The notes under the pieces: model-generated
The model's input: only the letters and a program-made list of their open reading frames with translations
Databases searched by the model: none
Told to the model about the DNA's origin: nothing
Source: a virus
Virus record (IMG/VR): IMGVR_UViG_3300021959_005338
Location: 1 to 20,205 of that record
DNA length: 20,205 nt
Strand: one strand, 5' to 3'
Part shown: piece by piece, positions 56 through 18,017 of the stretch
Layout of the letters: each line of letters begins with the position of its first letter
Position numbering within the stretch: the first letter of the stretch is position 1
Translations under genes and position numbers: made by a program

Positions 56-1144
56 CTATATAAAGTTATTATTAAAAAATTCTTTTGGGTGACACTCATA
101 ATTAAACTCGTGTCCGTGACACTTCATTGGAATCCGAGTCATTGCTAACATTGCTTGATTACGTGCTTGTTTTAATTGATGTATGTTTTGATCAAGATTA
201 ACATCTAAGTCTGATATATGATCGTTCCAAAACATTGGCATATCTTCTATACACCAACGATGCTCAGGACCATTGGGGTCGATACTGTACAATCTTTCAG
301 CGGCTGAATAGAAATTAGTTGCTCCATCCTCACGCTCTGGGTAACCAATCCTTACTTTCATATCTTTTTCAAAAAATCCTGGCGGTACAAACAATGGAGG
401 TGCTATGGTTCCTAACTGTTCTCCAACGTGGCTGTAACCATCATAGTGTCTAATTATTTCTCTAGTAGGGGTATATACTGTGCCTGGTATCTTATATCCA
501 TATTGCCAACCTAGTGTATCACTACGGTATGTATTATCATCTCCGCAGTCTGTTTCAAACCAGTACTTTCTAAACCTACCTGCTTTCATTAACAGCAGAC
601 TGTCAACTGTGTCCCAATGAAACTTAATAAAGTTTCCGTCTTCAGTTAACTCACCGTTAAGTTTTAGACTCATACGCATTTGCTCAGGCCAATGGCTGTA
701 ATACATAACTGCCAATGGATCAGTATCATTGAGTAATGTTTCTTTAGCACTACGTACTGTTTCTAAATCACTGTCGATAAAAATATGATCGTCATTTCCT
801 TCATACCATAACAATTGATCTGGATCATTAAACCTTTCATCACAAAGATCTCTCCATTTTTGTGTGCTATCAATCCTATGCCAGTTAATATCTAGCTTGT
901 CTTTAGGAAATATAGAATACATATACTCTTCTAATTCTTGTTGACGATCATTGAATTCAGCTAGATCAATATAAAATACAAACTTGTCAACCTCTGGTGC
1001 CATTACTGCACGACTGGCTAGACAATATTTAAAAATATCAAATCTATTGCTTACAGGAAACCAAGGAGCTCGTACATAGGTTGTACCAGCATACGGATAA
1101 GACATTTTAATGTCGGTTATTTTTACATTGAAGAATACTATCAT
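56..1144 (-). CDS. Glycosyltransferase-like protein with a DxD-type motif
   Basis: A 362-residue soluble protein with no signal peptide or membrane segment. An acidic patch at residues 118-126, DDHIFIDSD, follows hydrophobic beta-strand-like residues. It looks like the metal and nucleotide-sugar binding DxD (D124, D126) of GT-A glycosyltransferases. The N-terminal half alternates strands and helices as GT-A folds do; the C-terminal half is rich in aromatic residues and His. It is the last complete gene of an operon holding a sugar isomerase-type cupin, a nucleotidyltransferase/kinase, a phosphatase and an aldolase-like protein. Transfer of the activated product is therefore a reasonable inferred role. 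Its ATG overlaps the upstream stop (ATGA), which favours this start over Met14. No close family was recognised, so function is inferred from the motif and context. Confidence 0.5.
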   Translation of the reverse strand: MIVFFNVKITDIKMSYPYAGTTYVRAPWFPVSNRFDIFKYCLASRAVMAPEVDKFVFYIDLAEFNDRQQELEEYMYSIFPKDKLDINWHRIDSTQKWRDLCDERFNDPDQLLWYEGNDDHIFIDSDLETVRSAKETLLNDTDPLAVMYYSHWPEQMRMSLKLNGELTEDGNFIKFHWDTVDSLLLMKAGRFRKYWFETDCGDDNTYRSDTLGWQYGYKIPGTVYTPTREIIRHYDGYSHVGEQLGTIAPPLFVPPGFFEKDMKVRIGYPEREDGATNFYSAAERLYSIDPNGPEHRWCIEDMPMFWNDHISDLDVNLDQNIHQLKQARNQAMLAMTRIPMKCHGHEFNYECHPKEFFNNNFI

Positions 1145-2124
1145 TTCAAATTCTTTGTGTAAGTGTCATAGATATCGTACATTACTTGATTAACTTCGTG
1201 TTGCCAATCAATACCTTGACTCTGTAACTTATTGACTACAGCATGATACTCTGGGCTGTTAAAACAGTAATGGCCACCTACACTAACTTTTTGCGTACTA
1301 TCATCTAATCTAGTCCACTTAGACCACCTGTTACTTGCTAATACTAAATCATGAAATTGTTGCCATTCCTCTGGTGCGTGTCTACTACTTAATACTCTTA
1401 GCAATTTAGTCTGTGCTACCCCTAACTGTGGTGCTATATTTAAAGTATGTACACCAGCTTCTTTTCTCATTCTAACTTCTGCGGCTGTTAGGTAGTCTGC
1501 GTTATGTTCTTTCAGCTTAACACCATTTTCAACAGCAACCTGTACCAGTTCACAAGCGGCTTGATAATTAAATTCACCAGCTTGATGATCCTCGTGACAT
1601 AAACTTCCTGTCTGTGCTACCACTGTGTATATGTTTGGCATATTCTTAGCAAACGCAACATCTTTTTTGTATTGTATTATACCTGCGGCTACACCAACGT
1701 TTTCTTCAGTACCAAATTCAAAACGCACATTAGGATTCTTCTTATAAGAAAAATCAAATAATTCTTCTGCAATGCCATACGTATCGTCTACACGTGAAGT
1801 ATCAATATGTATTAGATCAAACCCTTGTTCTATATCATAAGCAATAGTTTTCTTACTGGCTTCGACAGCATCACGCAAAGGCAAACCTTTCTCAACATCA
1901 AGGAAGTATGGACCACAATGATCACGACATATCCACAATTTATCTGTTGGTAGCGTGCTAAGTAATTCACGAAGTTCAGGAGTAGTCATTACATAACCCG
2001 ATTCGGCATCAATTTGATTACGACTGGCTATTACCATCAATGGTTCGTTCTTATCTGTAGAATATGTTGCTAATGAACTAATAACTTCTCGACTCATTGG
2101 GCCAAATCCTAGTTTAAAATCCAT
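1141..2124 (-). CDS. GatZ/KbaZ-like TIM-barrel protein (tagatose-bisphosphate aldolase subunit family)
   Basis: The protein matches the pattern of GatZ/KbaZ, called the non-catalytic subunit of class II tagatose-1,6-bisphosphate aldolase. Motifs in order, numbered from the ATG: RDHCGP (67-72, like GGDHLGP), IHIDTS (105-110), FEFGTE (135-140, like YEIGTE) and KEHNADYLT (205-213, like the HSTDYQT block). Length, about 327 residues, is somewhat shorter than the roughly 420 of enterobacterial GatZ. No GatY-type partner is present in the window, so it probably acts alone on a phosphorylated sugar or aldehyde. The frame can open at a TTG (2130), but the ATG at 2124 has a GGGGA Shine-Dalgarno six bases upstream and is preferred. 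It overlaps the phosphatase gene by 11 bp. The family call is firm; the reaction is not. Confidence 0.75.
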   Translation of the reverse strand: MDFKLGFGPMSREVISSLATYSTDKNEPLMVIASRNQIDAESGYVMTTPELRELLSTLPTDKLWICRDHCGPYFLDVEKGLPLRDAVEASKKTIAYDIEQGFDLIHIDTSRVDDTYGIAEELFDFSYKKNPNVRFEFGTEENVGVAAGIIQYKKDVAFAKNMPNIYTVVAQTGSLCHEDHQAGEFNYQAACELVQVAVENGVKLKEHNADYLTAAEVRMRKEAGVHTLNIAPQLGVAQTKLLRVLSSRHAPEEWQQFHDLVLASNRWSKWTRLDDSTQKVSVGGHYCFNSPEYHAVVNKLQSQGIDWQHEVNQVMYDIYDTYTKNLK

Positions 2125-2584
2125 GTTCAATCCCCATCTTATCCATTATATATACACAAGCATCCATTACTGCCCCTTTTCCTCCATCCCTTTCTGTTAC
2201 GTAAGTTGCATTGGCTACTGCTGTTCTCCAGGCCTGTGCCGGTGCAATGCTTAATCCTACGTGTGGAAATATTTTAGCATCATAAGGCCCATCACCCATA
2301 AACACGGTTTCAGTAGGATCACCTTTTGCTAATACAAAATCTAATCTATCTGCTTCTTTAACACAACTACAAGGAAACTTCATGTGTGTAATAACTCTAG
2401 ATTCAGTTATCGGCCATCCTTGCTTATCAGCCGATACGAACTCTATATCAATATGTTTTCTTAATAGCTTTAATCCATCGTGATCATAGTTGCCAAATGC
2501 TTTAAATGGTTTTCCGTCTACTCCCCAATATAGCATACCATCGTTTAACACTCCATCTACATCTAATATAAATCTTTTATACAT
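2114..2584 (-). CDS. KdsC-like HAD-superfamily phosphatase
   Basis: A 156-residue, capless HAD phosphatase of the KdsC (3-deoxy-D-manno-octulosonate-8-phosphate phosphatase) type. Visible features are the nucleophile motif DVDGV (8-12, Asp8 nucleophile and Asp10 acid/base), a YDHDGLK segment (33-39) typical of KdsC, Ser51 as the motif II residue, GDGPYD (97-102) with metal-binding acids, and GGKGAV (134-139) near the C-terminus. Length agrees with KdsC, which forms tetramers. In the operon it would dephosphorylate a sugar-phosphate intermediate before activation by the nucleotidyltransferase/kinase. The start codon overlaps the upstream stop (TAATG), implying coupled translation. Family is secure; a true Kdo substrate is not shown, since no KdsA or KdsB is visible. 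Confidence 0.85.
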   Translation of the reverse strand: MYKRFILDVDGVLNDGMLYWGVDGKPFKAFGNYDHDGLKLLRKHIDIEFVSADKQGWPITESRVITHMKFPCSCVKEADRLDFVLAKGDPTETVFMGDGPYDAKIFPHVGLSIAPAQAWRTAVANATYVTERDGGKGAVMDACVYIMDKMGIEHGF

Positions 2585-4206
2585 TAATCAAGTACCTTTG
2601 AGAAATGGTATTGTGAAAGTGCTACTAAGAATTTATCAAACGGTGCTTCGTGCAATGGGCTCATATTTAAATAGATAATTGGTACTAACAGTTGGACCTT
2701 ACGCCAATTAAGTCCATTAGCTTCAACCCAGAGTCTTAGTTTTTCTTCATAGTGAGCAACATCAGTGATATGTGGAACTTCTATTGTTGCGTAGTCATTT
2801 TCTTCTTTGTAGCTATACAACTCGCTCTTGATGTCTTTGTAACTCTGAAATAATCCGCCTAACATTTTTGCTAGGTCATAATATTGATCTCCATATAGTG
2901 TTCCACCAAAGTCTGTTCTCCAGTCAATGGCTGTAAACTTGTAAACAGCTTTATCTCTAAGTTCATCCCATATTTTCTGATTTACAATAGCTAATGAACT
3001 TGGCCTTCCTCTAAAAGGTTGGTATTCGTATATGGTGTTATCGAAATGCAAATCACCGTGAACAAACTTCCAACTAGTTTCAGTACATAACCACTTCCAA
3101 TCAATCTTTTTTAGATATGCGTCAATTGTATCTACTTCTCTTCCGTTGACTACACAAGGTTCACTCCAATCACTATACTTTGTACGGAACATATCAACAC
3201 GTTCCATTGTTTTATCGTGATAAAACTTATGACATATATCATATTTGTCTTGTTCAGTGATATCTGCTGGTGCATCTTTCCATAACTCGTTCTCGCACCA
3301 AGATAACATCTTATCAAACACAGGCAACGTGTATTGATTATATACTATATCGCCTTGAGCGAAATCATGTATTAAGAAATTTCCTGATTGTTCGACATTA
3401 TTGGGCATTGCTTCTGGATTGCAAAGAGCACGTTTCACACGCAATTCTGCATGTTTAGTTTCTGTCCAGAATTTAATAATTTTGTTGTTGTCGCAATAAA
3501 ATAGTTCGTTAGGTTTAGGAAAACTAACATCTGTTAGGTGTGACGACAGTTCTTCCCATTTTTCATAAGTACCAAAGTCTTTCCACTCTCTAATAGAGTG
3601 TACTTTAAGATCCATACCTTCGAAGCCTTCGGGTGTTTGTTTTGCCGAACGTTCTTTAAGATTGTTCAGATACTCATCATCTTTAGCGTACATTAACCCA
3701 ACAAAAGCATCTACAGCATGTGGGCTAGGTTTTTTCTCTATCACATCAATTAGCTTATCCCCATCACGTTTAACCCAATGGTAATCTTGACTGACGGTAC
3801 TGTCTACTGGGTGTACTCCAATCCAATTATGGTCGAGCTTGTCTTGATAATCAAAATCAAATAAAGTGTCACATGCTAACCACATGAACCCGCCTCTAAT
3901 ATATTTTTCACAAGCTTGTATTGTTGTTGCAGGCCCAGTATTTCCTTCTGCATAGTCCTTGATATCAACGAATTGAATATCCTTATCTTGATGTACCACT
4001 GAAACATAGTCTTTGACATGTTGCCCCATGTGCCCAACAGCTATAACAAATCTTGTATATTGATCAAACTTCTCCATAATATGGCTGATCAAAGGTTTAT
4101 TGTCGTAGGGAACAAGTGCTTTTGGAACCATTCGGCTAAATGGTCCCATCCTGCGACCATAGCCTGCGGCTAAGATTAGTACAGTAAGTTTACTCGTGTT
4201 CGGCAT
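2584..4206 (-). CDS. Bifunctional sugar-phosphate-type nucleotidyltransferase and APH-family kinase
   Basis: Two enzymes are fused. The N-terminal domain (to about residue 235) is an NTP-transferase: LAAGYGRRMGP loop near residues 16-26, VPKALVP with a conserved lysine at 31-37, and an ACDTLFD metal motif around 115-121. The C-terminal domain (about 240-540) is an aminoglycoside/choline-kinase fold: VHGDLHFDN catalytic loop (386-394) and the IDWRTDFGG metal motif (431-439), followed by YYDLAK. The pair could phosphorylate a small molecule and then attach CMP or another NMP. The nearest known precedent in architecture is fusion of LicC- and LicA-type choline activation enzymes; the neighbouring genes point more to a sugar. 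Residue numbers count from a possible ATG at 4218. The ATG at 4206 has GGGAGGA just upstream and is preferred. It overlaps the cupin gene. Confidence 0.8.
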   Translation of the reverse strand: MPNTSKLTVLILAAGYGRRMGPFSRMVPKALVPYDNKPLISHIMEKFDQYTRFVIAVGHMGQHVKDYVSVVHQDKDIQFVDIKDYAEGNTGPATTIQACEKYIRGGFMWLACDTLFDFDYQDKLDHNWIGVHPVDSTVSQDYHWVKRDGDKLIDVIEKKPSPHAVDAFVGLMYAKDDEYLNNLKERSAKQTPEGFEGMDLKVHSIREWKDFGTYEKWEELSSHLTDVSFPKPNELFYCDNNKIIKFWTETKHAELRVKRALCNPEAMPNNVEQSGNFLIHDFAQGDIVYNQYTLPVFDKMLSWCENELWKDAPADITEQDKYDICHKFYHDKTMERVDMFRTKYSDWSEPCVVNGREVDTIDAYLKKIDWKWLCTETSWKFVHGDLHFDNTIYEYQPFRGRPSSLAIVNQKIWDELRDKAVYKFTAIDWRTDFGGTLYGDQYYDLAKMLGGLFQSYKDIKSELYSYKEENDYATIEVPHITDVAHYEEKLRLWVEANGLNWRKVQLLVPIIYLNMSPLHEAPFDKFLVALSQYHFSKVLD

Positions 4207-4657
4207 CGATCCTCCCATGTCCTCTATTGCTTGAATCTTCTAAACGTATTACGTCATCTAATTGAGTGGTACTTGCTTCTGTATAGTGCAAATCGTCATG
4301 GGCGATCATTCTGTGTATAGTTCCAGGAGGAGTATGAAATACTGCTCCAGGTTTTAGTTCTTCGATTATTAATTCACTTTTAATTTTATCAATCTCTTCT
4401 TTAGTGTATCCGCCATCTAAGAAACGTTTACAATCAAACGGATCAGGGTGATATGCTAATGCACCGTTGCCAATATGTAGATGTATGCTTTCTGATTTAA
4501 ATTGATGTACCTGTAGGCTCGTAACAAATCCTGATTTAAGCAATAATTCTTTGAGTGCAAATGGGTAAACGTCATCACCGCCTTGCAACCAGGTTTCTGT
4601 TCCCCATGGTTTATGTACTACATGACAGCCTTCTAATCTTTGAAAATCTACGGACAT
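4190..4657 (-). CDS. Mannose-6-phosphate-isomerase-type cupin
   Basis: A single cupin domain of the type II phosphomannose isomerase family, 155 residues. Opening KPWGTE (16-21) is characteristic, followed by SLQVHQFKSE (47-56) with His51 and Glu56, TPPGTIHRM (109-117) with His115, Glu127 and the closing DDVIRLEDSSNR (134-145). This supplies the usual His/Glu metal set. Known relatives interconvert mannose-6-phosphate and fructose-6-phosphate, or are sugar-binding cupins of unknown reaction. As first gene of the leftward operon it likely supplies or isomerises the sugar phosphate used downstream. The ATG at 4657 has an AAGGA Shine-Dalgarno and lies about 16 nt from a predicted start of transcription. 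Confidence 0.8.
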   Translation of the reverse strand: MSVDFQRLEGCHVVHKPWGTETWLQGGDDVYPFALKELLLKSGFVTSLQVHQFKSESIHLHIGNGALAYHPDPFDCKRFLDGGYTKEEIDKIKSELIIEELKPGAVFHTPPGTIHRMIAHDDLHYTEASTTQLDDVIRLEDSSNRGHGRIDAEHE

Positions 4658-4733: not shown

Positions 4734-4740
4734 TTTGACA

Positions 4741-5847
4741 ATGTTAAAAAAATCTCAATGTCTAGTACCACACAGTATGGCTTTTATAAGACCCGATGGG
4801 CAATATAGAGACTGCTGTAGTTCAACACCACATGTGATAAAGTTTGAAAAGAACTTTACAGATTGGTGGCAGGGCGATACTATGACTAAGCTAAGAGAAA
4901 ATGTTTCCAAAGATATTTTACCAAAAAACTGTCAACGTTGTAGTCAACACGAATCAGCTACCGGTGAGTCAATGCGTTTAACAGTTAACAAAGACAATGA
5001 AACTTTTAACGTTAACAGTAAACTACCTAATAGATACCAGATAGCATTTGGTAACTTATGTAATCTAGGTTGTTGGAGTTGTGAAGAAAATCTTAGCAGT
5101 GTGATACAAGAAGAAAAACGTAAACTAAAAATTCTACCAGAAAACTATGTAGATCCTAGTGTTGGATTTAGTAAAGCGTGGCCCAGCTTACGTGATAATA
5201 TTTTAGCTAGTTACGATGAACACCAAGAAGTACTAATAAACATTTGGGGTGGGGAACCTACTATATCTAAAGAGTTTGTAGAGTTCCTAGAACTATTGGT
5301 TGAGCGTGGACTTTCACATAGAACTAGGATTGAAATGTTTTCCAACTGCCATAGCCCAAAGCCAGGATTCCAAGAGCTACTTGAAAATAATAAGTGGGCT
5401 CATATCACTATACTAGCTAGTCTAGATGCAGTTGGAGAAGCAGGTGAATGGATACGCTACGGATCAAATTGGAATCAAGTTGAAACTAACTTTATTAGAT
5501 TTAAAGACATAGCAGACTACATAGAAATACAGTGTACACTAAGTGTATTAACTGCTCGTCATCTACCAGAGTTGATGCAGTACGGTAAAGAACATAACGT
5601 AACAGTAACTCCTGTACCACTACAAGATCCTTGGTATATGAGTCCTGCTCGATGGGATGGTGACTTATCTATACTAGGTAGCCAGGAAGAATATAAACAA
5701 GCAGGGTTGTCAAAAACTTGGGAATTGTATGGTAGCAGTCCTGAAGCAGGGTCTAGCGAAACATTAAAATATTACATCAATCAATTTACTAATAGAACAA
5801 TAACAACTCCGTTTAATCCAGCACTTAACGAATTTATTAACAGTTAA
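4741..5847 (+). CDS. Radical SAM enzyme with N-terminal Cys-rich (twitch-like) domain
   Basis: A 368-residue radical SAM protein. The cluster-binding motif CNLGCWSC (Cys107, Cys111, Cys114) and WGGEP (169-173, SAM binding) are intact. An N-terminal domain of about 95 residues carries further cysteines: Cys7, Cys25-Cys26 and a CxxC at 64/67. These could hold an auxiliary Fe-S cluster, as in families called twitch-domain radical SAM proteins. It shares this plan with the genes at 14724 and 16350. No substrate is evident. The frame extends to a TTG at 4735, but the ATG at 4741 is the better start; it lacks a Shine-Dalgarno and follows a TATAAATA box by seven bases. It is the only rightward gene between the two outer blocks and overlaps the next gene tail to tail. 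Confidence 0.85.
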   Translation: MLKKSQCLVPHSMAFIRPDGQYRDCCSSTPHVIKFEKNFTDWWQGDTMTKLRENVSKDILPKNCQRCSQHESATGESMRLTVNKDNETFNVNSKLPNRYQIAFGNLCNLGCWSCEENLSSVIQEEKRKLKILPENYVDPSVGFSKAWPSLRDNILASYDEHQEVLINIWGGEPTISKEFVEFLELLVERGLSHRTRIEMFSNCHSPKPGFQELLENNKWAHITILASLDAVGEAGEWIRYGSNWNQVETNFIRFKDIADYIEIQCTLSVLTARHLPELMQYGKEHNVTVTPVPLQDPWYMSPARWDGDLSILGSQEEYKQAGLSKTWELYGSSPEAGSSETLKYYINQFTNRTITTPFNPALNEFINS

Positions 5848-6176
5848 GCTACTTTAACTAACGTCATTTCTATTGTTTGTTTAACAATACCGTCTACACT
5901 AATAACAGTTTCAGCTTGACAAATTCTAGCTTTTGCTTTTATAATTTTATCGTCTAATGTGATAGTATCACCTACATATACAGCATCAACATATTTAACA
6001 TTTAGTTTTGCTAATGCCCAATAAGGTTCCGGGTCACGTGATATCATTGCTGTAACAAGTATGCCAGGCGCAATGGCTTTTCCTAATTCGTTGTCTTCTG
6101 TGTGTATTGGATTGCTGTCACCGATTGCTTGACAATACTGTTTAACTAGTTCGGGTGTTATTTTTATATTTTTCAT
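5844..6176 (-). CDS. MaoC-like hot-dog dehydratase/hydratase
   Basis: A compact 110-residue single hot-dog domain. Residues 16-25, QAIGDSNPIH, give the catalytic Asp20 and His25 of MaoC/(R)-specific enoyl-CoA hydratases, followed by the expected helix with APGILVTAM in place of the usual AHGML. Length is slightly below the 130-150 residues of typical members. Such enzymes hydrate or dehydrate 3-hydroxyacyl thioesters, and here a carrier or non-thioester substrate is equally possible. It is the last gene of the leftward block starting with the cobalamin-type radical SAM gene. It overlaps the preceding ligase-like gene by 35 bp and the convergent radical SAM gene by four bases (TTAA). No good ribosome binding site is visible, so translation is probably coupled. 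Confidence 0.75.
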   Translation of the reverse strand: MKNIKITPELVKQYCQAIGDSNPIHTEDNELGKAIAPGILVTAMISRDPEPYWALAKLNVKYVDAVYVGDTITLDDKIIKAKARICQAETVISVDGIVKQTIEMTLVKVA

Positions 6177-7347
6177 AGATCTTGTATAAGTTCCCTTGAG
6201 TATTTTGATTCTTACGATTACTTAATCCTTCAAGTAAACTTTCATCATTCATTGACATTAATTCTTTGCTGATGCCTGCATTCATTATCTGATCAAGTTG
6301 ATCATCTTGTGGCAGTTTTAACATTCTTTTTAACAATTCAAGATCTTTGAAAGGAGTCAAAGTCAAGGTATTATCAAAATGCCAATGTTGATGATCATGT
6401 AGATTAATATTTAATATTTGCTCACACAACTGTTTGTAGTCCTGTGTTAATTCCCACATATCTGGATCCATACGTTGTTTTTCATATAACGGTTTTAACT
6501 TATCTGCTGTTAGGTACTTGTAATGATAATTTTCTGGACCTATTAGATCAAATATATCTAATCCGTAGTGCATTAATAGAAGATTTATTGTTCCAGGGCT
6601 ACGTAATAGATTTTCGTCACCGTTGGCTCCGGTTAATAGCACTGTAGGTTTGTTCCATAGATGTATTTGCTTATAACCCCAATATTGATCTATTAGATGT
6701 TTTTTATTACAGTATGTCTTAGTGAAATCAACGTGTTCATAGTTTACTATTTCAAAATTATCAGTATGCCGTTTAAGGAAAGAAAACAAACACAGAGTAT
6801 CAATCCCTCCCGACAAGAATACTTTGATTGGATCATGATGGTGTGATAAAAACTGTTGGAATTTTCTATCAATATATCTATGTAACCATCGTACTACCTG
6901 TTGCCTTGACTGTGGCTCAAAATCAAAATCACCATAAGGGTCAAAATAAAGATCATTAATGATTAACCCTACAGGATTAACTTTGACATATCTATCAGCC
7001 CAAACAAGTTCCAATGAATCACGTAGCAGATTAGTTATTAACCATGGATTGCGTGATACAGCCATTGGTGTTGCTCTATGTACATCATGTGTTATAGTTA
7101 TCTCACCATCGGCATTGACTATTATAGCTAAAAAGTTTCCACGAAACTTAGGCTCTGGACTGTTAATCAACTCTATAAAGAACTGCTGATCCATAGCACA
7201 ATGTTCTACGTAACCTTTACTATATATTCTAGCAACACCAAGGTCAGTTATCTTCCAACCATCATCACAGTTAAGCCATATGTCTCTTACTATATTGTGT
7301 GAGTTACTAAATGTTGAGTCTGAACTTTTTTTAATTTCAAAAAACAT
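6142..7347 (-). CDS. Asparagine-synthetase-like ATP-dependent ligase without glutaminase cysteine
   Basis: A 401-residue protein of asparagine synthetase B layout. The PP-loop SGGID (179-183) in FLSGGIDTLCLF binds ATP, and TGANGDEN (239-246) matches the downstream synthetase motif. The first about 130 residues resemble a class II glutaminase domain (GNFLAIIVNADG, HDVHRATPM) but start Met-Phe, lacking the essential Cys2. It should therefore not use glutamine and may instead join a free amine or ammonia to an adenylated carboxylate, as beta-lactam synthetase does. It is shorter than the 500-600 residues of AsnB. It overlaps the genes on both sides (11 bp and 35 bp), so it is produced with the SGNH-like and MaoC-like proteins. 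Family confident, reaction unknown. Confidence 0.75.
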   Translation of the reverse strand: MFFEIKKSSDSTFSNSHNIVRDIWLNCDDGWKITDLGVARIYSKGYVEHCAMDQQFFIELINSPEPKFRGNFLAIIVNADGEITITHDVHRATPMAVSRNPWLITNLLRDSLELVWADRYVKVNPVGLIINDLYFDPYGDFDFEPQSRQQVVRWLHRYIDRKFQQFLSHHHDPIKVFLSGGIDTLCLFSFLKRHTDNFEIVNYEHVDFTKTYCNKKHLIDQYWGYKQIHLWNKPTVLLTGANGDENLLRSPGTINLLLMHYGLDIFDLIGPENYHYKYLTADKLKPLYEKQRMDPDMWELTQDYKQLCEQILNINLHDHQHWHFDNTLTLTPFKDLELLKRMLKLPQDDQLDQIMNAGISKELMSMNDESLLEGLSNRKNQNTQGNLYKIYEKYKNNTRTS

Positions 7348-8236
7348 ACTTGTAAAATACCTCAGCTATCTTATTATGTGTTAGAGGCCCTGGATGTTGT
7401 CCGTCGGTACCTAGGTCCTTCATAAATTTATTATATTGCAACTCCATGGAAAAGTCAACAATAAAACCCGGATGTTGTTTTAACGTGTTAATTAATGTCC
7501 TATCAGTTTCAAAATCATTACGCATTGCTTGGGCAATATGTATAGTTGCTCCTACCTTGTTGCAGTAATTAATTGCTTGCTTGATTGTCTTTACTGCCAG
7601 ATAAACATTCCATCGATGTGTAAGTACTTTTGACATTATAGAATATTCATCTCTACCTAATTCTTTTGGGTCTATTTCAGGCCAAATCTTAATAGCTTGA
7701 TTGTCTTCACTGAAATAATCTATTCTATGTGCCGTAGTCAGCATCCAAAAAACTTGATCGCCTTTTCTAATGTCACTTCTCAATAACTGATCACCTGCCC
7801 ATGGTATACTTGCTCTGGGTGCGGCCAACACTGAAACATTACGATTTAATTTTTGTGCTAGTCGATTGGCCCATCTTTGATCTTGCTCTACACCAACAGC
7901 CGAAGTATAACTACAACCTAAAGCCCATATCTGTGTTTCGTCTGTTTTCCTTGCATCCTCCAATATACAACTGTCTAGTATTGAATCTTCGTTAGTATCA
8001 AAAAATAATTTATAAAACTCTTTGATCATTGGACTGGCTGTTACATCACAATGTACTTTGTTAGATCGTTGACATAATTTGATAAAGTTTTCTAGTGAAA
8101 CATCTTCCTGTGATGTGTATACCACATTGTTATCGTCTACCGGCATCGACTCGTCGGTAACAAGTATAGCATTGGGATATTTTTCCTTTACTCTATGAGC
8201 AAACTCTCCGCTAGTGTCTCCTAAGAATAATATCAC
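7337..8236 (-). CDS. SGNH/GDSL-hydrolase-like protein
   Basis: 299 residues. Residues 104-118, ALGCSYTSAVGVEQD, match block I of SGNH hydrolases with Ser109 as nucleophile. DGQHPG (278-283) supplies the Asp278/His281 pair of the C-terminal block. About 100 residues ahead of the catalytic domain form an additional N-terminal region without recognised motifs. No signal peptide is present, so it acts in the cytoplasm. SGNH enzymes remove or move acyl groups from sugars, lipids or thioesters. The start is GTG at 8236, overlapping the upstream TGA, with GGGGAAG eight bases upstream. It sits between the small beta-rich protein and the asparagine-synthetase-like ligase and is likely part of the same pathway. 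Confidence 0.7.
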   Translation of the reverse strand: MILFLGDTSGEFAHRVKEKYPNAILVTDESMPVDDNNVVYTSQEDVSLENFIKLCQRSNKVHCDVTASPMIKEFYKLFFDTNEDSILDSCILEDARKTDETQIWALGCSYTSAVGVEQDQRWANRLAQKLNRNVSVLAAPRASIPWAGDQLLRSDIRKGDQVFWMLTTAHRIDYFSEDNQAIKIWPEIDPKELGRDEYSIMSKVLTHRWNVYLAVKTIKQAINYCNKVGATIHIAQAMRNDFETDRTLINTLKQHPGFIVDFSMELQYNKFMKDLGTDGQHPGPLTHNKIAEVFYKYVF

Positions 8237-8616
8237 TTGACAACTTCCCCTAGTAAATAACTCATAAAATGTGTATACATAGCATTGTTCTTTATTTTAA
8301 ATTGATACGTTCCAGGTTCATCCATATAACCGTAGGTAGTTTTTCTCTTGTTACTACTAGTTATGTATGTTCCGATCCTGTCTAGGGCAGTTGTGAGTTC
8401 GAGGTCATTGACAGAAATCTTTTCAATTATCAATGCTTGTCCTTGCTCGCATTGTTCAACCGAAACACTAAACGTAAATTCATTAGCGTCTATATCGGCT
8501 TCAACTGTAACGTAATCATTGTGTTCAGTCAGAGTTGCTGTGTCGGGTACGACTCGCCACTTGAAATTATCCGTCTTGTGGATAAACTTGATGTATATTG
8601 ATAACTTTTGTTTCAT
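8233..8616 (-). CDS. Small beta-rich protein of unknown function
   Basis: 127 residues with no recognised family. Alternating hydrophobic and polar stretches (for example YVTVEAD, FTFSVSV, ALIIEKISVNDLEL and GTYQFKIK) suggest an all-beta sandwich, as in carbohydrate-binding or accessory domains; this is inference. There is no signal peptide or membrane segment. Its ATG lies 50 bp inside the end of the radical SAM gene and no alternative start exists in frame near there, so the long overlap seems real. A four-base GTGA junction joins it to the SGNH-like gene. Its place in the tightly overlapped block suggests a binding or accessory role for the same substrate. Confidence 0.6.
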   Translation of the reverse strand: MKQKLSIYIKFIHKTDNFKWRVVPDTATLTEHNDYVTVEADIDANEFTFSVSVEQCEQGQALIIEKISVNDLELTTALDRIGTYITSSNKRKTTYGYMDEPGTYQFKIKNNAMYTHFMSYLLGEVVK

Positions 8617-10141
8617 ATGGTGTTATGTAATCTTTACCTTTATATTTTTCTAGATATACTCTTTCCAATCCATCTATTTCATTTTTCCATTTAGATATTA
8701 ATCTTTCATCGTGCCATGTTAAACCTAGATCTAAACTTGTTTGTATTAGTCTTCTCCATCTATCTACTCTGACAAGGAAGTCGTTGTCTGGAAATAGTTC
8801 ACTTTTCCAAAAATGTACAGTCAACGCATCGGTGTAATCTAAATCTGTTAACCCATAGTAAGTACGCAAATCTGGATCTGTGTTAATATTGTTTGTTGGT
8901 ATGTGCATGTAAGGTGGTGTAACGTTAATCCTTAACATACCATCTTTGCCTAAATGCTTTGACTGTTTAAGCAACTCTAAAGTTTCTTGAAAGTCTTCTT
9001 CAGTTTCACTTGGGTATCCTACTATAAATAACCAACTTTGTACTATATCGTTACGGAATAGTTCGTTTGCTGTGTACATTATATCTTCGTTACTAAACTT
9101 TTTACGCATTTCATTTCTAATCTTTTCACTACCACTTTCTACACCAATTATCCATCGCTTACTACCAGCTCTAGCGGCTAGTTCAAAGTCTTCTTTAGGA
9201 TGATGTTTTTGTTGACGGAATATAGCGTAGCCTTGATACTCTATTTCACGAGGTATTTCCCTTGCTAACATTTCGTTCATTTTTCTAAAGTTAGTTACGG
9301 ATCCGTTCATAAGATTATCAGTAAAGAAAAAGTTTGTTATTCCTGTACTCTTGTAACTGTGTATGATATCTCTAGCAACATTGGTTCCTTCTCTGAAAAT
9401 ATACTTAGGCCAAAAGTTTGCTACATCACAGAATGTACACTTACGCACACAACCTTTACTGGCAGTTATGCCCATGTATCTAAGATTATCACTCACTGAA
9501 CTAATTGCTGTGTTGTATGTGGCTAAGTCATAGTCATCCCAATACGGTGAAGGAATACGATCTAAATCTTCTTTAGTTTGTTGTTTGCTCATATAGATAC
9601 CTGTGGCATCATCTGTTAATGCATCAATCAATGATGTTTCAGCATCGCCAACAACTATGAGATCAGCCATACCAAACTTATCATACATTTCATAGTGCTT
9701 CATGTCAGTAAGACCGTGATGATTTTCTAGTCCTCTACCGCCTAGTACTATTTTAACTTCAGGTAAATATTTTTTAATGTAGCTCATTACCAATATACTA
9801 AAGTCTACTGACTCTGAGGTGAAGATACTTAATCCTATATACTCGGGATCATATTGTTTTTTAACTTCTAACAAGTATTGTTTTATAAATTTAAGTATGT
9901 CAATGATAACACGTCGTGGTAATGATATTTTAGTAACGTGTCCTATAGCAAATAGATTGTGTATATCTCCCCAATGCCCTGAATCTTTGAAATGATTGAA
10001 GAAATCAATGTTAAGATCTTTTGCTATTGAACTAAACCCAGCTTCTTTAAGACAAGCACTCAACAGAACTGGTGCCATTGGAGGTATCGGCTCCATTATA
10101 GGACAGCTCATTATTACTATGTCTTTTTTAGTTTGAGTCAT
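8567..10141 (-). CDS. Cobalamin-binding-domain radical SAM protein
   Basis: A 524-residue protein with the B12-binding plus radical SAM layout. Residues about 7-175 have the Rossmann-like B12 domain features (MAPVLLSACLKEAGF, YIGLSIFTSES, VKIVLGGRGLENHHG, ADLIVVGDAETSLIDAL). The radical SAM domain follows with CVRKCTFC (Cys221, Cys225, Cys228) and GVESGSEKIRNEMRKK further on. Class B members methylate carbon or phosphorus atoms, or rearrange rings, using SAM and cobalamin. The common DxHxxG cobalamin ligand motif is absent, as in many members of this class. It heads the leftward block of five genes ending at the MaoC-like gene. It is preceded by a 37-bp gap with no clear promoter, and the host would have to supply cobalamin. 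Confidence 0.85.
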   Translation of the reverse strand: MTQTKKDIVIMSCPIMEPIPPMAPVLLSACLKEAGFSSIAKDLNIDFFNHFKDSGHWGDIHNLFAIGHVTKISLPRRVIIDILKFIKQYLLEVKKQYDPEYIGLSIFTSESVDFSILVMSYIKKYLPEVKIVLGGRGLENHHGLTDMKHYEMYDKFGMADLIVVGDAETSLIDALTDDATGIYMSKQQTKEDLDRIPSPYWDDYDLATYNTAISSVSDNLRYMGITASKGCVRKCTFCDVANFWPKYIFREGTNVARDIIHSYKSTGITNFFFTDNLMNGSVTNFRKMNEMLAREIPREIEYQGYAIFRQQKHHPKEDFELAARAGSKRWIIGVESGSEKIRNEMRKKFSNEDIMYTANELFRNDIVQSWLFIVGYPSETEEDFQETLELLKQSKHLGKDGMLRINVTPPYMHIPTNNINTDPDLRTYYGLTDLDYTDALTVHFWKSELFPDNDFLVRVDRWRRLIQTSLDLGLTWHDERLISKWKNEIDGLERVYLEKYKGKDYITPYETKVINIHQVYPQDG

Positions 10142-11994: not shown

Positions 11995-12917
11995 TTAGCT
12001 TTCTTGGTAAATGTTTGTCCTTTAGGGGCTCTCATGACACCAATTGGATCGAGTAACTGTTGAGCTTTCTTGTGTTTAGGTGGTTGTTTAACCTTAGGTT
12101 TTGATTTTGATTTAACAGATGTATTTTTTCTTCCTATCGTAACAGGAGGCTCATCACTTTCAGGAAGTTCTGTGCTTGGCATTACCCAGTCAACGTAATA
12201 GTTTTCTCTGTCTAGCCAATTTATAACCATTTCTTCTTGGTGTGGGAATCCATGTCTTGTAATGCTGTCAACTATGCTAGGATGTAATAAGCCTTTTTCA
12301 GCTAGTTCATACCATGTAGTAGTAGTAGGGTCCATTGGTTTAGTATCTGACTTGTATACAGCAATTTTTATCCAAGGATCTTGCCAGGCTTTATGCAGAT
12401 AAAAATCACAACAATCAAAACCGTTTACAGCTAACATATAAATTAAACTTGTTGGTGTGTGGTTATAATAACATCCGGACCGAGTGTTAGCATAATATTT
12501 TCCGTTATATACACCGTTGCTCTGAGGCACATGCAATACTAACATACCATTAACTGACATTTGCTCGTTCCAAAGACGTAATGTGTTCAGAGGATCTGTA
12601 CTGTATTGAAGACTATCGTGAGCCCATAATAGATCAATGTCTACTGGAATTATTCTTGGATCATTGAAGTTTCTATGTATTTTGCGTATGTTTTCGTGAT
12701 TAGGAACAGCATCTAACCTCTTAATGTCTTGATCTACAGCATAACACTTGTAGTTATAAGGTCGCGGAACATCGTCCTTAGATTCTAAAGTAGCCCACCA
12801 TGCTATGTCTGCACCGTCTCCACAGCCCATATCACATATAGTTGTTAGACTTTCTAAAAAAGTGTCATATCCATATATTAATTTAAGAGTGGCCCAACTG
12901 TTGTGATGACTAGCCAA
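11991..12917 (-). CDS. Class I SAM-dependent methyltransferase with a Lys-rich tail
   Basis: 308 residues. Motif I, CDMGCGDGAD (28-37), is the SAM-binding glycine loop, and HDSLQYSTDPL (about 99-109) is the post-motif II region seen in small-molecule and lipid methyltransferases. The last about 45 residues are rich in Lys and Pro (KSKSKPKVKQPPKHKKAQQ), an unusual basic tail that could bind nucleic acid or an anionic partner. No ATG is available before the motif I region. The start is TTG at 12917, with GGAGG nine bases upstream, inside the last codons of uvsY (8-bp overlap). It is cotranscribed with uvsX and uvsY. The substrate is unknown; DNA, a nucleotide-sugar or a lipid are all open. Confidence 0.75.
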   Translation of the reverse strand: MASHHNSWATLKLIYGYDTFLESLTTICDMGCGDGADIAWWATLESKDDVPRPYNYKCYAVDQDIKRLDAVPNHENIRKIHRNFNDPRIIPVDIDLLWAHDSLQYSTDPLNTLRLWNEQMSVNGMLVLHVPQSNGVYNGKYYANTRSGCYYNHTPTSLIYMLAVNGFDCCDFYLHKAWQDPWIKIAVYKSDTKPMDPTTTTWYELAEKGLLHPSIVDSITRHGFPHQEEMVINWLDRENYYVDWVMPSTELPESDEPPVTIGRKNTSVKSKSKPKVKQPPKHKKAQQLLDPIGVMRAPKGQTFTKKAK

Positions 12918-13365
12918 TTGATGAATCCTCCATACCTGCTGTACGCAATCTTGTCACGTGTCCAAGCATAAAGTTTTTACTTTCAATTCCCTTCATAACA
13001 CCTAGCCACTTGTTACGTAGTAGTGCTACTTCATTGATAATAGTTTCAAAATCAATAACTTCGTCTTCTCCGTCTACATATTTTTCTGCGTCTCTCGACG
13101 TCAATGCTCTATTGTAGGCTTCAAGATATTTTTGAAAGTATTTACGTCTTAGTTTCCTTAATTGTATATTAAGAAAATTTAATACAGCTTCGATCTCTTG
13201 TAGCTGATTAAATCGATGTTCAGTGACACCTGGTAGTTTAGCAAGAGCTTTTTCTATGTTTCCATGTATGCCAATTTCTTTTTTGCAGTCTGCTAGTTCG
13301 GCTTCATAATGAGCTATCATGTCAGGTATGGCTCCTAAGCTAGCAACTACTCTACTATACCACAT
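12910..13365 (-). CDS. uvsY: UvsY-like recombination mediator protein
   Basis: 151 residues, close to the 137 of T4 UvsY. The C-terminal part (RNKWLGVMKGIESKNFMLGH, then VTRLRTAGMED) lines up with the end of T4 UvsY, which has IKSRGFAIKHIQDMR followed by FEAG. The segment LTSRDAEKYVDGEDEVID is of the type seen in marine T4-like relatives. UvsY loads UvsX onto gp32-coated single-stranded DNA. Helix-rich composition with many Lys/Arg around residues 70-90 suits DNA and partner binding. It lies two genes downstream of uvsX and its start overlaps the preceding stop (TAATG). The match is from memory of the T4 protein and not from an alignment. Confidence 0.75.
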   Translation of the reverse strand: MWYSRVVASLGAIPDMIAHYEAELADCKKEIGIHGNIEKALAKLPGVTEHRFNQLQEIEAVLNFLNIQLRKLRRKYFQKYLEAYNRALTSRDAEKYVDGEDEVIDFETIINEVALLRNKWLGVMKGIESKNFMLGHVTRLRTAGMEDSSIG

Positions 13366-13604
13366 TAGTAATCATCACTCCCGTCAAAATCCTCATCTGG
13401 ATCTTCTTCTTCTCCGAGATATTCATATACTGCTCTGCCTATATACTGGTCAATGCCTCCAAACTGTTTAAGGTCCATTTCAGAAAGTTCACCATCTGCA
13501 ATAACAGCAACTACGTGATCTGCGGCCGCTTGTCGGTCCTTAACATTGATATACTCTTTTGTAGTAGTCCATACTTCAGAGAGTACTTCGACATCTATAG
13601 TCAT
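13365..13604 (-). CDS. Small acidic protein between uvsX and uvsY
   Basis: 79 residues, family unknown to me. The sequence has a helical centre (DRQAAADHVVAVIADGELSEMDLKQF) and a strongly acidic tail, GEEEDPDEDFDGSDDY, at residues 64-79. Such tails often mimic nucleic acid or contact DNA-binding partners. It starts inside the uvsX stop (ATGA) and its stop overlaps the uvsY start, so it is translationally locked between the two recombination genes. A role as partner or regulator of UvsX or UvsY is inferred only from position and charge. Confidence 0.7.
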   Translation of the reverse strand: MTIDVEVLSEVWTTTKEYINVKDRQAAADHVVAVIADGELSEMDLKQFGGIDQYIGRAVYEYLGEEEDPDEDFDGSDDY

Positions 13605-14722
13605 TCTGTTGTTTCCTTAGTTTTTTCAGTAGCACCTGTTGTTACTTCAACTACTGGTTGATTATCTTCTACGTCTTCTTCATCATCAGTACTTAGTCTT
13701 TTTACGCTACTACTTATTTCTTTCATAGCAACATCTAAACATCCTTCGTCGTTGGCTTCCCACGCTTTACGGAATTTTTTAATAATTGTGCCATCTGCTA
13801 CTTTGTAAACAAGACTGTTGCCTTCTTTACTTAACAACTTTTTACCTTCTAACATATTAGTAAGCCCTGAATATGGACTCATTCCAGTTTCATATGGAAT
13901 CTTAACCTGTACTGATTCAAACGGTTTAGCATAACGTGTTTTCATAATCTTACATGATGCACGGATACCTTTAACTTCAGATATCTTGTTGCCAGCTTCA
14001 TCTTCTTTAAGTTTAAGTTTCTTCATAGCAACTACAATACTTGAAGCGTAAATAAAACCTTGCCCACCTGATATCTTATCATCTGGATCAAACATGTCTT
14101 GGCTTGCATATGTGTGGTTTGTACATACCATGCCTACGTTGTGACTACCAAACATGTTAACTGTATTACGAACCAATGATGTTAGTGCTTTTGGCTTACG
14201 ACCCATGTCACCTTTCATGTCACCTGCTTCGAACTGATTAACATCGGTGGGTGTTAGCATCATACCTAAACTATCAATAACAAATAATACTTTAGGTGCT
14301 TCTTCTGCTTCTAGTGTTTTGTAGTCTTTCATAAACTCTGATATTGTTTTAGCAACATCATCAATCATTGCCATGTTAAGTTTAAGTAACTTATCTTCAG
14401 ACGTATCAACACCAAGTGCCTGTAACCACTGTTCATCTAAAGCATTTTCTGTATCAATCAAGATTGGATAGATACCTTGTTCCTGTGCATGTTTAATAAT
14501 GTTACCTGAACAGATGTAACTCTTACCTGCTCCTGATTCACCAGCAAACACTGTTACTTTGCCTAACGGAATACCTTTGTTAAAGTCACCACTGATTAAG
14601 TAATTAAGTGTGTAATTACCTGTTGATATCCAATCAGTTGGGTCATTGAATCCAATACCTAAGCCATCAATGCTTTTGGTAATACTCTTTCTAAATTTTG
14701 ATAAATCAAATGGTTTTGCCAT
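13601..14722 (-). CDS. uvsX: UvsX RecA-like recombinase
   Basis: A 373-residue RecA/UvsX ATPase. Walker A GESGAGKS (61-68), LIDTENALDEQW (88-99) carrying the catalytic glutamate region, and Walker B VLFVIDSLG (145-153) are intact, and ISGGQGFIYAS follows as expected. Length compares with about 390 in T4 UvsX. The C-terminus is acidic (DDEEDVEDNQ), as in RecA-type proteins that tune DNA binding. UvsX coats single-stranded DNA and drives strand exchange, supporting recombination-dependent replication together with gp32 and UvsY. The ATG is preceded by GAGAGG. Only one base separates it from the radical SAM gene upstream. Confidence 0.93.
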   Translation of the reverse strand: MAKPFDLSKFRKSITKSIDGLGIGFNDPTDWISTGNYTLNYLISGDFNKGIPLGKVTVFAGESGAGKSYICSGNIIKHAQEQGIYPILIDTENALDEQWLQALGVDTSEDKLLKLNMAMIDDVAKTISEFMKDYKTLEAEEAPKVLFVIDSLGMMLTPTDVNQFEAGDMKGDMGRKPKALTSLVRNTVNMFGSHNVGMVCTNHTYASQDMFDPDDKISGGQGFIYASSIVVAMKKLKLKEDEAGNKISEVKGIRASCKIMKTRYAKPFESVQVKIPYETGMSPYSGLTNMLEGKKLLSKEGNSLVYKVADGTIIKKFRKAWEANDEGCLDVAMKEISSSVKRLSTDDEEDVEDNQPVVEVTTGATEKTKETTE

Positions 14723-14723
14723 G

Positions 14724-15875
14724 TTATTGCCTCTCTAATGAATTATAGAATTCTGTAAATATTTTCCTACTATCTATGCCGCGCCTTTGATCTATTTTTG
14801 CTATTTGCTCCAAACATAGATCTATCCTCTTATCGATTGGACTACTAATATATTGTAACACATTTCTTAGTCCAACTTCAAGTAAATATCCTGGTTTTTT
14901 ATCCAACCACGCAGAAATATCAGTCTTAACTAAGTTTAACATACTTTCTGGTAAATGTCTAGCATTTAGGTGATCTGGACCTAACAAACTTCCTACAACG
15001 AAACTATTATTTTGGAATCCTCTACGTTTAAAGAAGTTTATGGTATCAAAAAGACTTCTATAATTCAATAAGTGATGTAACATATTGAATGTTATCTTAT
15101 GATCTAGTTGCTTAATAACTTCAAGGTTATCTAAAAAGTCTTGCCACACTCCGCCGTAACGTATATATTCGAACTCTTCTTCTATTTCATCTACCGAAAC
15201 AGTCCAATGTACATTGGGAAACTCACATATCTTTTCAAATACACGAGTACCTGTTTTACTAAGGTTAGTATTTACTCTTAAGTTTACTTGAGGATTCTTT
15301 TGTTTAAGTATTTCTAATAGCTCTAAGTTTTCTTTCATCAGCAAGGGCTCGCCACCTGCCATATAAACGTGTTTAAGTTGTTCAGCTCTATCATATACCA
15401 ACTGTTTAAGCTCTTGTACCCTATGTTCAGGCACTTGGGGCGGTTGAATATTAAGTTCTGTAGCCCATTTACTAGAGTATTCTGGTGAACAATATACGCA
15501 AGCATGATTGCACACATTAGACCAACGTATATCTATCTTATGTAAGTCAAAATTGTTAGGATCGTCATACAAGGTGTTGTCTACAGATTTTAATTCTTTA
15601 AGATAGAATATTCTGTCGCTGATAACATCAAAGTTTTGTTTATCACCTTCAAGATCATAACAATTATTGCATCCTAGCCCGTCTTGTTTGTTTAACATTC
15701 GTTGTTTAGTTTCTGTATTTCCATCTAAGATTTCGTGTATTGAATTATCTTTGAGATTACCTATAGCTCGTTGACTACGTATACAGTTAAGCACGTCACC
15801 ATTTGAATTATACATAAAGCCTGTCCACGGTATAGGACAAAACTTTTTATTAGTTAGATATTCCTTAGGATCCAT
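14724..15875 (-). CDS. Radical SAM enzyme with N-terminal Cys-rich (twitch-like) domain
   Basis: 383 residues. CNHACVYC (Cys122, Cys126, Cys129) binds the radical SAM cluster and GGEP (174-177) contacts SAM. The N-terminal domain has Cys13 within FCPIPW, Cys31 and a CxxC at 69/72, a plausible second Fe-S site. It is the same layout as the genes at 4741 and 16350, but FCPIPWTG and the C-terminal region differ, so these look like distinct subfamilies instead of recent duplicates. The start ATG lies within the last codons of the SDR gene (11-bp overlap) and has no ribosome binding site, so translation is probably coupled. It lies immediately upstream of uvsX and is likely on the same transcript. 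Confidence 0.88.
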   Translation of the reverse strand: MDPKEYLTNKKFCPIPWTGFMYNSNGDVLNCIRSQRAIGNLKDNSIHEILDGNTETKQRMLNKQDGLGCNNCYDLEGDKQNFDVISDRIFYLKELKSVDNTLYDDPNNFDLHKIDIRWSNVCNHACVYCSPEYSSKWATELNIQPPQVPEHRVQELKQLVYDRAEQLKHVYMAGGEPLLMKENLELLEILKQKNPQVNLRVNTNLSKTGTRVFEKICEFPNVHWTVSVDEIEEEFEYIRYGGVWQDFLDNLEVIKQLDHKITFNMLHHLLNYRSLFDTINFFKRRGFQNNSFVVGSLLGPDHLNARHLPESMLNLVKTDISAWLDKKPGYLLEVGLRNVLQYISSPIDKRIDLCLEQIAKIDQRRGIDSRKIFTEFYNSLERQ

Positions 15876-16353
15876 TTATATACTCAATCACTTCTGCGGC
15901 ATATTGATCAACATTTTCGTACTCAGGCTCTTTCTGTCCGGGCTGTGTAGCAATCATACCCGGAGTTATTAATATTAGTTTTGGTTTCTCGTCTCTTAGA
16001 ATACACTGTTGGTGTGCTAGTTCTAATGCTTTTTTCTGTACGAGATATTGGTCCCACTGTTCTCTAGGTGCTAGTTTACTAGCAGTCATCTTTGTGCTTA
16101 TGTTAACGATAGTTTTTTGTTGTCCTCTCCATCTAGTCCACACTTCCCAAAACAATTCAGTTTGTGCGAATCCAACCTGTGCGTTATTAATAAACATATC
16201 ACAGCTCTGTATCATTTCGGCTACCTTAGGTATACTACGTATATTGTATCCGCTACGTCGACTAAGCCCAACTACTTCGTGTCCTAATGCTGTGTACTGC
16301 ACACTAAGGGCCTCTCCTATACCTGCCGAATGTCCTGTGATTGCTATTTTCAT
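15865..16353 (-). CDS. Short-chain dehydrogenase/reductase, minimal form
   Basis: 162 residues, well below the usual 240-260 of classical SDRs, yet with every key motif: GHSAGIG nucleotide-binding loop (7-13), NNA (56-58), NIS with Ser86, and YLVQK (Tyr103, Lys107) completing the Ser-Tyr-Lys triad, then PGMIATQPG (131-139). The shortened central region between the first strands and NNA suggests a compact Rossmann fold instead of a broken gene. It would oxidise or reduce a hydroxyl or keto group with NAD(P). It sits between two radical SAM genes, joined by ATGA and an 11-bp overlap, so it probably works on their substrate or product. Confidence 0.8.
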   Translation of the reverse strand: MKIAITGHSAGIGEALSVQYTALGHEVVGLSRRSGYNIRSIPKVAEMIQSCDMFINNAQVGFAQTELFWEVWTRWRGQQKTIVNISTKMTASKLAPREQWDQYLVQKKALELAHQQCILRDEKPKLILITPGMIATQPGQKEPEYENVDQYAAEVIEYINGS

Positions 16354-17348
16354 TGATAATAATCCTTATAGCTAATGTTTCTTAATTCATCTTGTTGTTT
16401 AATAAACTCTAATAGATGTACGGTATTATTTTCTAATGATGCTATTTGTTCTAGCAACGGTAATACTTCTTGATTCCTGCTCTGTGCTAATTTTTCTTTG
16501 GCAACTAAGGTTAACCAGTTTTCATATCTAATGTCTAACATTTCAGGCTGATTTAATAATGCCCAACTGTGATCTATTTTGTGTTCGTTTTTAAAGTCGA
16601 TGATGTTAGCAAAATCACCCACGTTGAGTGCATTTACTGTGGTCCATAAGTTAAGATTACTTATGCCCATGGCCTTATATTTCATCAAGTTACTATAGAA
16701 TTTATCCCATTTAATTGGCCAGCGTACATAATCATGTACGTTTTCAATGCCATCAAAACTTACAGTAACAGTAACATGTATTCCTCGTTCTAACAGTGTT
16801 TCTAATTCAGGTATAACTAACGCACAGTTTGTGTTTATTCTTATACTACGAACATTCTTAGGAGGATTCTTTAGTATTTGTTTATAGTTTTTGCTAGCAC
16901 TAGGTTCTCCCCCGTTAACATCTAAATGAACTACTCTATCCAACGGTAACGACCAAAAACCTTTGCTGTTATCTACCATTAGGTACTGTTTGCTTTTTAA
17001 TCCGCCTATCTTAGTGCTTAATTCTTCATTGCAAAATTGACAAGCTGAGTTACATATATTATCTAATACTCCGCCTACAGTCAAATAATCTTTTTGTTTT
17101 TGTAAACGATCAAAATTAATAGCATTTAGTCTAATACTGCTGTTACTTAGTTCTTCTGTTTGTTGGCATCTTACACACTCTTTAGGCCATTGGTCTTTAC
17201 CCATTAGGTCTTTGGTATCAGACATCCATTCGCTAGACTGCATATCATCATATGAACTAAATGTAGGTTGACCAATCATATGACCACAACAGCTTACTTC
17301 ACTGTTTGGATGGAATCTAACAAAGTGATCAAGTCTTGGGCAATACAT
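16350..17348 (-). CDS. Radical SAM enzyme with N-terminal Cys-rich (twitch-like) domain
   Basis: About 332 residues from the ATG. CNSACQFC (Cys99, Cys103, Cys106) and GGEP (146-149) mark the radical SAM barrel. N-terminal Cys3, Cys20-Cys21 and a CxxC at 58/61 repeat the layout of the protein at 4741; both also share a CEE/CNEE turn after the cluster motif, so these two are the closest pair. A GTG at 17357 can open the frame, but the ATG at 17348 is preceded by AGGTGA at good spacing and is chosen. It overlaps the sulfotransferase-like gene by 20 bp and the SDR gene by ATGA. Confidence 0.87.
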   Translation of the reverse strand: MYCPRLDHFVRFHPNSEVSCCGHMIGQPTFSSYDDMQSSEWMSDTKDLMGKDQWPKECVRCQQTEELSNSSIRLNAINFDRLQKQKDYLTVGGVLDNICNSACQFCNEELSTKIGGLKSKQYLMVDNSKGFWSLPLDRVVHLDVNGGEPSASKNYKQILKNPPKNVRSIRINTNCALVIPELETLLERGIHVTVTVSFDGIENVHDYVRWPIKWDKFYSNLMKYKAMGISNLNLWTTVNALNVGDFANIIDFKNEHKIDHSWALLNQPEMLDIRYENWLTLVAKEKLAQSRNQEVLPLLEQIASLENNTVHLLEFIKQQDELRNISYKDYYQ

Positions 17349-18003: not shown

Positions 18004-18017
18004 AGTTCTTACGAACT
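18004..18017 (-). other. Hairpin with a GUAA tetraloop over the gp32 stop codon
   Basis: On the minus strand AGTTC-GTAA-GAACT forms a 5-bp perfect stem with a GNRA-type loop. The loop contains the TAA stop of gp32, and the next gene starts about ten bases beyond. There is no following T-run, so it is not a typical terminator. It could control translation of the downstream gene or protect an RNA end. Confidence 0.35.

Follow-up and report, generated by a model that had tools for sequence, protein, structure and literature searches.

Two cargo modules side by side in a T4-like phage fragment: a B12-type radical SAM gene and its beta-sandwich partner next to an asparagine-synthetase-like gene set

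Do phage genes that overlap in an unbroken row on one strand also work in one pathway? The question is raised by IMG/VR virus record IMGVR_UViG_3300021959_005338, a fragment of a T4-like phage whose entire 20,205 bases are the window analysed here. Its minus strand carries a block of five genes, here called B1 to B5, that an earlier note on this DNA had taken for one unit, held together by its overlaps and engaged in tailoring a small natural product or modified lipid. Comparison with relatives gives a different answer: the block consists of two independently inherited cargo modules lying side by side in the replication region, one of B1 and B2, the other of B3, B4 and B5 together with a sixth gene for a twitch-domain radical S-adenosylmethionine (SAM) protein.

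Two modules in one block

The five open reading frames (ORFs) and their overlaps of 50, 4, 11 and 35 base pairs (bp; B1/B2, B2/B3, B3/B4 and B4/B5, respectively) were borne out. B1 encodes a B12-type radical SAM enzyme (8567-10141, 524 amino acids, aa), B2 a beta-sandwich protein of predicted CBM60-like fold with a C-terminal helix (8233-8616, 127 aa), B3 an SGNH-like hydrolase (7337-8236, 299 aa), B4 a predicted amide-forming enzyme of the asparagine synthetase (AsnB) superfamily (6142-7347, 401 aa) and B5 a MaoC-like hot-dog hydratase (5844-6176, 110 aa). Against the closest relative, contig IMGVR_UViG_3300010150_005037 (L001 and L017; L numbers mark loci of relatives), the ratios of nonsynonymous to synonymous substitution rates (dN/dS) for B1 to B5 are 0.06, 0.10, 0.26, 0.10 and 0.05, and all five are therefore maintained genes under purifying selection. 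The overlaps do not bind them into a unit: of the window's 22 pairs of adjacent genes, 16 overlap, the uvsY-like gene (12910-13365) and its neighbours among them, so overlap alone does not single out the five-gene block.

A set of 2.9 million viral contigs was searched for relatives of the block genes, one gene at a time. The complete B1-B5 order recurs only in L001, where the proteins are 85-98% identical; the same five genes in the same order were not found in any unrelated phage. B1 and B2 occur without SGNH, AsnB or MaoC genes nearby in L002/L004 (90% and 63% identical), L005, L027-L033 and L034-L036; two of these records do hold SGNH relatives, but tens of kilobases (kb) away. In all, the pair is found in about six further lineages where the other three genes do not adjoin it. 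Conversely, L018 holds relatives of the SGNH (55% identical), AsnB-like (61%) and MaoC (76%) proteins without B1 or B2, and L020, which is cut by the contig end, has the SGNH gene with neither B1 nor B2 upstream. The AsnB-like gene occurs apart from all four others in L044 (where it adjoins a gp32 gene), L046 and L047. The homologues thus largely occupy independent neighbourhoods, and the reading of the block as a single pathway is left unsupported.

The second module extends beyond the five genes of the earlier note. The twitch-domain radical SAM gene (N_Twi_rSAM; 4735-5847, plus strand; NF033640 at 3.7e-59, over the cut-off) is convergent with B5 and overlaps it by 4 bp, and relatives keep it by the AsnB-like gene. 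In L018 the SGNH, AsnB, MaoC and twitch genes stay together at 55-84% identity, with the twitch gene adjoining MaoC. The L018 MaoC gene (L018:11163-11498) is on the opposite strand relative to that of the window, in line with the twitch gene; inverted as it is, it lies between the AsnB-like and twitch genes in both. In L025, the 338-kb record of a jumbo phage, a B1 and B2 pair and a convergent pair of AsnB-like and twitch genes are separated by about 4 kb, and no SGNH or MaoC relative was found in that record. A search for MaoC in 13 relatives was empty, a weak result given that it had no positive control.

B1 and B2, a constant pair

Across many phages B1 and B2 are strictly and durably paired. 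Each of the 15 loci that a search with B2 retrieved has B1 immediately upstream, and when all neighbouring ORFs were clustered, these two were the sole families common to 11 of 11 loci. In the 11 pairs measured, an overlap is always present and spans 14-59 bp, which suggests coupled expression. Pairwise identities of B1 follow those of B2 (r 0.97, a value reached by none of 5000 label permutations), with the reservation that the 11 compared loci represent about seven lineages, so that kinship makes the points partly dependent. The B1 enzymes that bear the pair group in a single clade (support 1.00) that excludes the more distant B12-type radical SAM proteins. The genes that lie upstream of the pair in the window and in L004 were compared for a common origin, and none was found.

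B1 matches PF04055 at 1.5e-16 (61.4 bits against a cut-off of 29.5) and has the [4Fe-4S] motif CxxxCxxC as C231-x3-C235-x2-C238, its cysteines invariant in relatives. It is probably cobalamin-dependent, judging from a degenerate N-terminal cobalamin-binding domain (PF02310 at 1.2e-4, 22.4 bits, below the cut-off of 32.1). B1 shares with class B cobalamin-dependent radical SAM methyltransferases the order of a B12-binding domain (putative in B1) and a radical SAM core that bears CxxxCxxC; it differs from these in falling far under all subfamily cut-offs, in its constant CBM60-like partner, and in having been obtained here from virus records only. Its best NCBIfam match is the PhpK P-methyltransferase model TIGR04479 (2e-30, 105.7 bits against a cut-off of 600); the C-methyltransferase model for ribosomally synthesized and post-translationally modified peptides (RiPPs), TIGR03975, follows at 1.6e-23, below its cut-off, as is the score for every curated radical SAM subfamily listed. 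Among 50,697 deposited phage records B1 had weak radical SAM core matches only, and B2, B3, B4 and B5 had no relative.

Some more distant B12-type radical SAM genes have company of their own. In L011:5432-7577 and L015:5848-7847 they are followed by overlapping genes for small, beta-rich-looking proteins of 194 and 170 aa, respectively, for which profile comparison gave no link to B2 (hhalign E 0.059, prob 0.9); in L016:4201-6716 a distant B1 relative overlaps a carbamoyltransferase gene (PF16861, PF02543). A role in defence was considered for B1 and the twitch enzyme and set aside: PADLOC gave one weak match for each (B1 to PDC-M51A at 1.2e-6, the twitch enzyme to pVip at 6e-4), and common radical SAM or B12 domains account for both.

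For B2 the evidence is structural. Its AlphaFold2 (AF2) model (predicted local distance difference test score, pLDDT, 85) is closest to carbohydrate-binding modules of family CBM60, with Z 8.1 for 2xfd (3.3 Å over 99 residues) and 8.0 for 2xhh, the next row being at 4.7; Foldseek matched the same two structures at prob 1.00, with E 1e-3 and 4e-3, respectively. B2 shares with the calcium-dependent CBM60/CBM36 modules a predicted beta-sandwich that covers nearly its whole length; its identity to them is about 9%, it has a C-terminal helix and no Pfam match, and it stands alone with a radical SAM partner rather than as a module of a xylanase. Pfam searches with ten B2 members gave chance matches and no CBM family, and a profile search of PDB sequences found no relative. 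Scans of GTDB genomes with the B2 and AsnB-like alignments also found none, although these were limited to one or two short patterns and do not establish absence from bacteria. The conserved residues of B2, GY-D-PG-FKI, read as a structural core. Taken with the strict pairing, the modelled fold points to B2 as a putative lectin-like substrate partner of B1. Among predicted viral structures B2 also had a weak match (prob 0.90, E 0.09) to an SGNH-esterase protein of 432 residues from an uncultured phage; if this match is true, such a domain and an esterase are there joined in one protein.

B3, B4 and B5

B4 has a PP-loop, S179-G-G-I-D183, and a second motif, G240-ANG-D244-E245, with G180, G181, D183, G240, G243, D244 and E245 invariant in seven homologues. 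Profile comparison with asparagine synthetases gave E 9e-6 (hhalign, prob 83, 152 columns running from the N-terminal domain into the SGGxD loop), against E 0.4-0.7 for unrelated controls. The structural model is poor (pLDDT 54); the top 18 Foldseek matches are nevertheless all ASNS, beta-lactam synthetase, carbapenam synthetase or TsnB9, and by Z beta-lactam and carbapenam synthetases lead (8.6 for 1q15). The glutaminase residue Cys2 of AsnB proper is absent, all seven homologues starting with MFF. Beta-lactam and carbapenam synthetases also lack a working glutaminase site, and B4 resembles them most within the superfamily, with an N-terminal nucleophile (Ntn)-like domain, a PP-loop ATPase domain bearing SGGxD and GxxGDE, and no glutaminase Cys. 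It departs from the superfamily in its length, about 400 aa against about 500, and in PF00733, which the window protein does not match (its best relative, from L025, reaches 15.5 bits against a cut-off of 21). Profile searches of PDB sequences gave nothing useful for B4 or for B3.

In B3 a variable N-terminal domain (about residues 1-95) precedes a domain with S109 (GCSYT) and D278-x-x-H281 (DGQH). The block I Ser is kept in six of six and the block V DxxH in every relative that reaches the C-terminus. No GDSL/SGNH Pfam model matched B3 at E <= 1, and its homologues had only chance Pfam matches; relatives in other phages were found at E 4e-37. With respect to the nearest phage, B3 stands at 85% identity and dN/dS 0.26, its neighbours at 95-98%, the differences lying mostly in the N-terminal domain. 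In L055 a shorter B3 relative adjoins genes whose families, as read from sequence and not from a scan, are epimerase, DegT-type aminotransferase and PIG-L-type deacetylase.

B5 has the hydratase motif GDxNPxH as G19-D20-S-N22-P23-I-H25, with D20 and H25 invariant. PF01575 matches it at 1e-5 (25.6 bits, just below the cut-off of 27), and the structure of human HTD2 (3ir3) matches at E 0.0037 with the GDxNPxH motifs aligned. The enzyme classes given in the earlier note are roughly right: the radical SAM domain is over its cut-off, the MaoC motif is intact, and AsnB superfamily membership follows from the profile comparison, with which the fold matches of the poor B4 model agree; the B12 domain is sub-threshold and the SGNH call comes from motifs only.

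Setting and possible roles

The block lies among replication genes: besides the uvsY-like gene, the window contains uvsX (13601-14722, named from its sequence) and a gp32-type single-strand binding protein gene (18009-19037); no tRNA genes were found in its 20,205 bases. Five radical SAM proteins are encoded within 20 kb (4735-5847, 8567-10141, 14724-15875, 16350-17357 and 19191-20105). Two of them belong to further cargo between uvsX and gp32, g18-g21 (14724-17994), with one short-chain dehydrogenase-like and one unknown gene; L001 lacks g18-g20, and its g21 is cut at residue 33. On the other side of the block, at 1141-4657, lies a mutually overlapping set that looks like part of a sugar pathway: a GatZ/KbaZ-like (aldolase-like) protein, a KdsC-type phosphatase, an NTP-transferase with a kinase-like C-terminal part, and a cupin. 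With its several radical SAM and sugar-nucleotide genes in variable cargo, the window resembles pelagimyophages and marine T4-like phages (PMC7029224, PMC5332604): radical SAM cassettes and lipopolysaccharide (LPS) genes occur in the former (PMC7029224), and one T4-like genome has 12 radical SAM genes (PMC5332604). The portions of these two papers drawn on here name such cassettes in general terms only, and describe neither a pair of B12-type radical SAM and lectin-like proteins nor an AsnB-SGNH-MaoC set.

The best-placed reading, held tentatively and at somewhat less than even confidence, is that of a two-module cargo in which B1 and B2 modify a sugar or glycan, B2 serving as lectin-like partner, and the second module adjusts acyl and amide groups. 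B2 would bind a carbohydrate or glycoconjugate and present it to B1, which would methylate an unactivated position, or rearrange it, by means of a 5'-deoxyadenosyl radical and methylcobalamin. B4 would adenylate a carboxylate and join it to free ammonia or an amine, because the residue that releases ammonia from glutamine is lacking; B3 may remove or transfer an acyl group, and B5 may hydrate an enoyl thioester. The targets would most likely be sugars of the host surface or glycans of the phage. They are suggested by the CBM60-like fold, the sugar-nucleotide genes at 1141-4657, the neighbours of the B3 relative in L055, glycosyltransferase and carbamoyltransferase neighbours (a glycosyltransferase lies near the pair in L004) and the published LPS and radical SAM cassettes. 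The proposal of a small natural product or modified lipid finds no specific support, the sugar and glycan neighbours and the CBM60-like fold pointing to a glycan instead. A more specific version, doubtful at present, is that the pair is phage-specific and that B1, as a B12-dependent radical SAM enzyme, would methylate surface-glycan carbons with B2 as its dedicated lectin subunit, remodelling the infected cell surface, for example against superinfection.

Several observations weigh against a role in glycan modification. Apart from the pair itself, the neighbourhoods of B1 and B2 are unrelated between lineages, and in several loci (L025, L035, L036) no obvious glycan gene is near. A CBM60-like fold is no proof of sugar binding, at 9% identity and a Foldseek E-value of just 1e-3; the B12 binding of B1 depends on a sub-threshold domain match, and the curated radical SAM families nearest to it have phosphinates, peptides and lipids as their substrates. 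B3 lacks the block-III Asn (GxND), having TTAHR or TGxxR at the equivalent place.

Another possibility, an unlikely one, is that B1 is a radical SAM enzyme acting on protein, with B2 as its substrate, for instance a virion or secreted lectin that is C-methylated or otherwise activated. Strict one-to-one adjacency, overlap and co-varying identity are typical of enzyme-substrate pairs, RiPP C-methyltransferases are among the close families of B1 (TIGR03975, above), and B2 is the faster-changing of the two (63% identity against 90% for B1, window against L004). B2, however, forms a complete folded domain and has neither a leader-like tail nor repeated acceptor residues, and its conserved residues look structural. 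We also consider it improbable that the genes are unrelated auxiliary functions gathered at a cargo hot spot between replication genes, with no common substrate or pathway. The pair's neighbours do vary by lineage, the AsnB-like gene is alone in L044, L046 and L047, and the nearby cargo block of two radical SAM genes and a short-chain dehydrogenase-like gene is missing in L001; but the second module has held together in L018 despite its divergence, and in L025 the two pairs lie closer than random placement usually gives, although this is one case.

A single pathway encoded by all five genes, with a small acyl-amide natural product or a modified lipid as its product, is decidedly unlikely. It would agree with the tight overlaps, the single strand and the purifying selection on all five genes, and AsnB-like enzymes of beta-lactam synthetase type (a fold match here) serve natural-product pathways; the order, however, is confined to the nearest relative, its parts are separate in more distant ones, MaoC is inverted in L018, and no carrier protein, ketosynthase, peptide precursor or transporter was seen in the window. 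As the earlier note had it, no described phage pathway with this five-gene set was found in the open-access literature or in deposited phage records. Least probable is modification of phage nucleotides or DNA (hypermodified bases) by the radical SAM and AsnB-like genes, for which the block's position near uvsX, uvsY and gp32 and the asparagine-synthetase-like gene that Achromobacter phage Motura carries between queC and a tRNA-guanine transglycosylase homologue (L062:1344-4441), suggesting a role in deazaguanine DNA modification there, could be cited, and against which stands the lack of any queC, queD or transglycosylase match in the window, itself a short fragment.

The enzyme kinds are known; what is undescribed, as far as our searches go, is a B12-type radical SAM enzyme paired with a CBM60-like protein. 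A general lesson of the locus is that overlap between phage genes gives no evidence for a common pathway. Marine T4-like phages have many radical SAM genes, still unexplained, and here one of them comes with a strict small partner, conserved in loci that range from T4-like fragments to one record of 338 kb; the two genes make a system compact enough for expression and assay. Should B2 prove to be a lectin, the class of substrate would be named directly.

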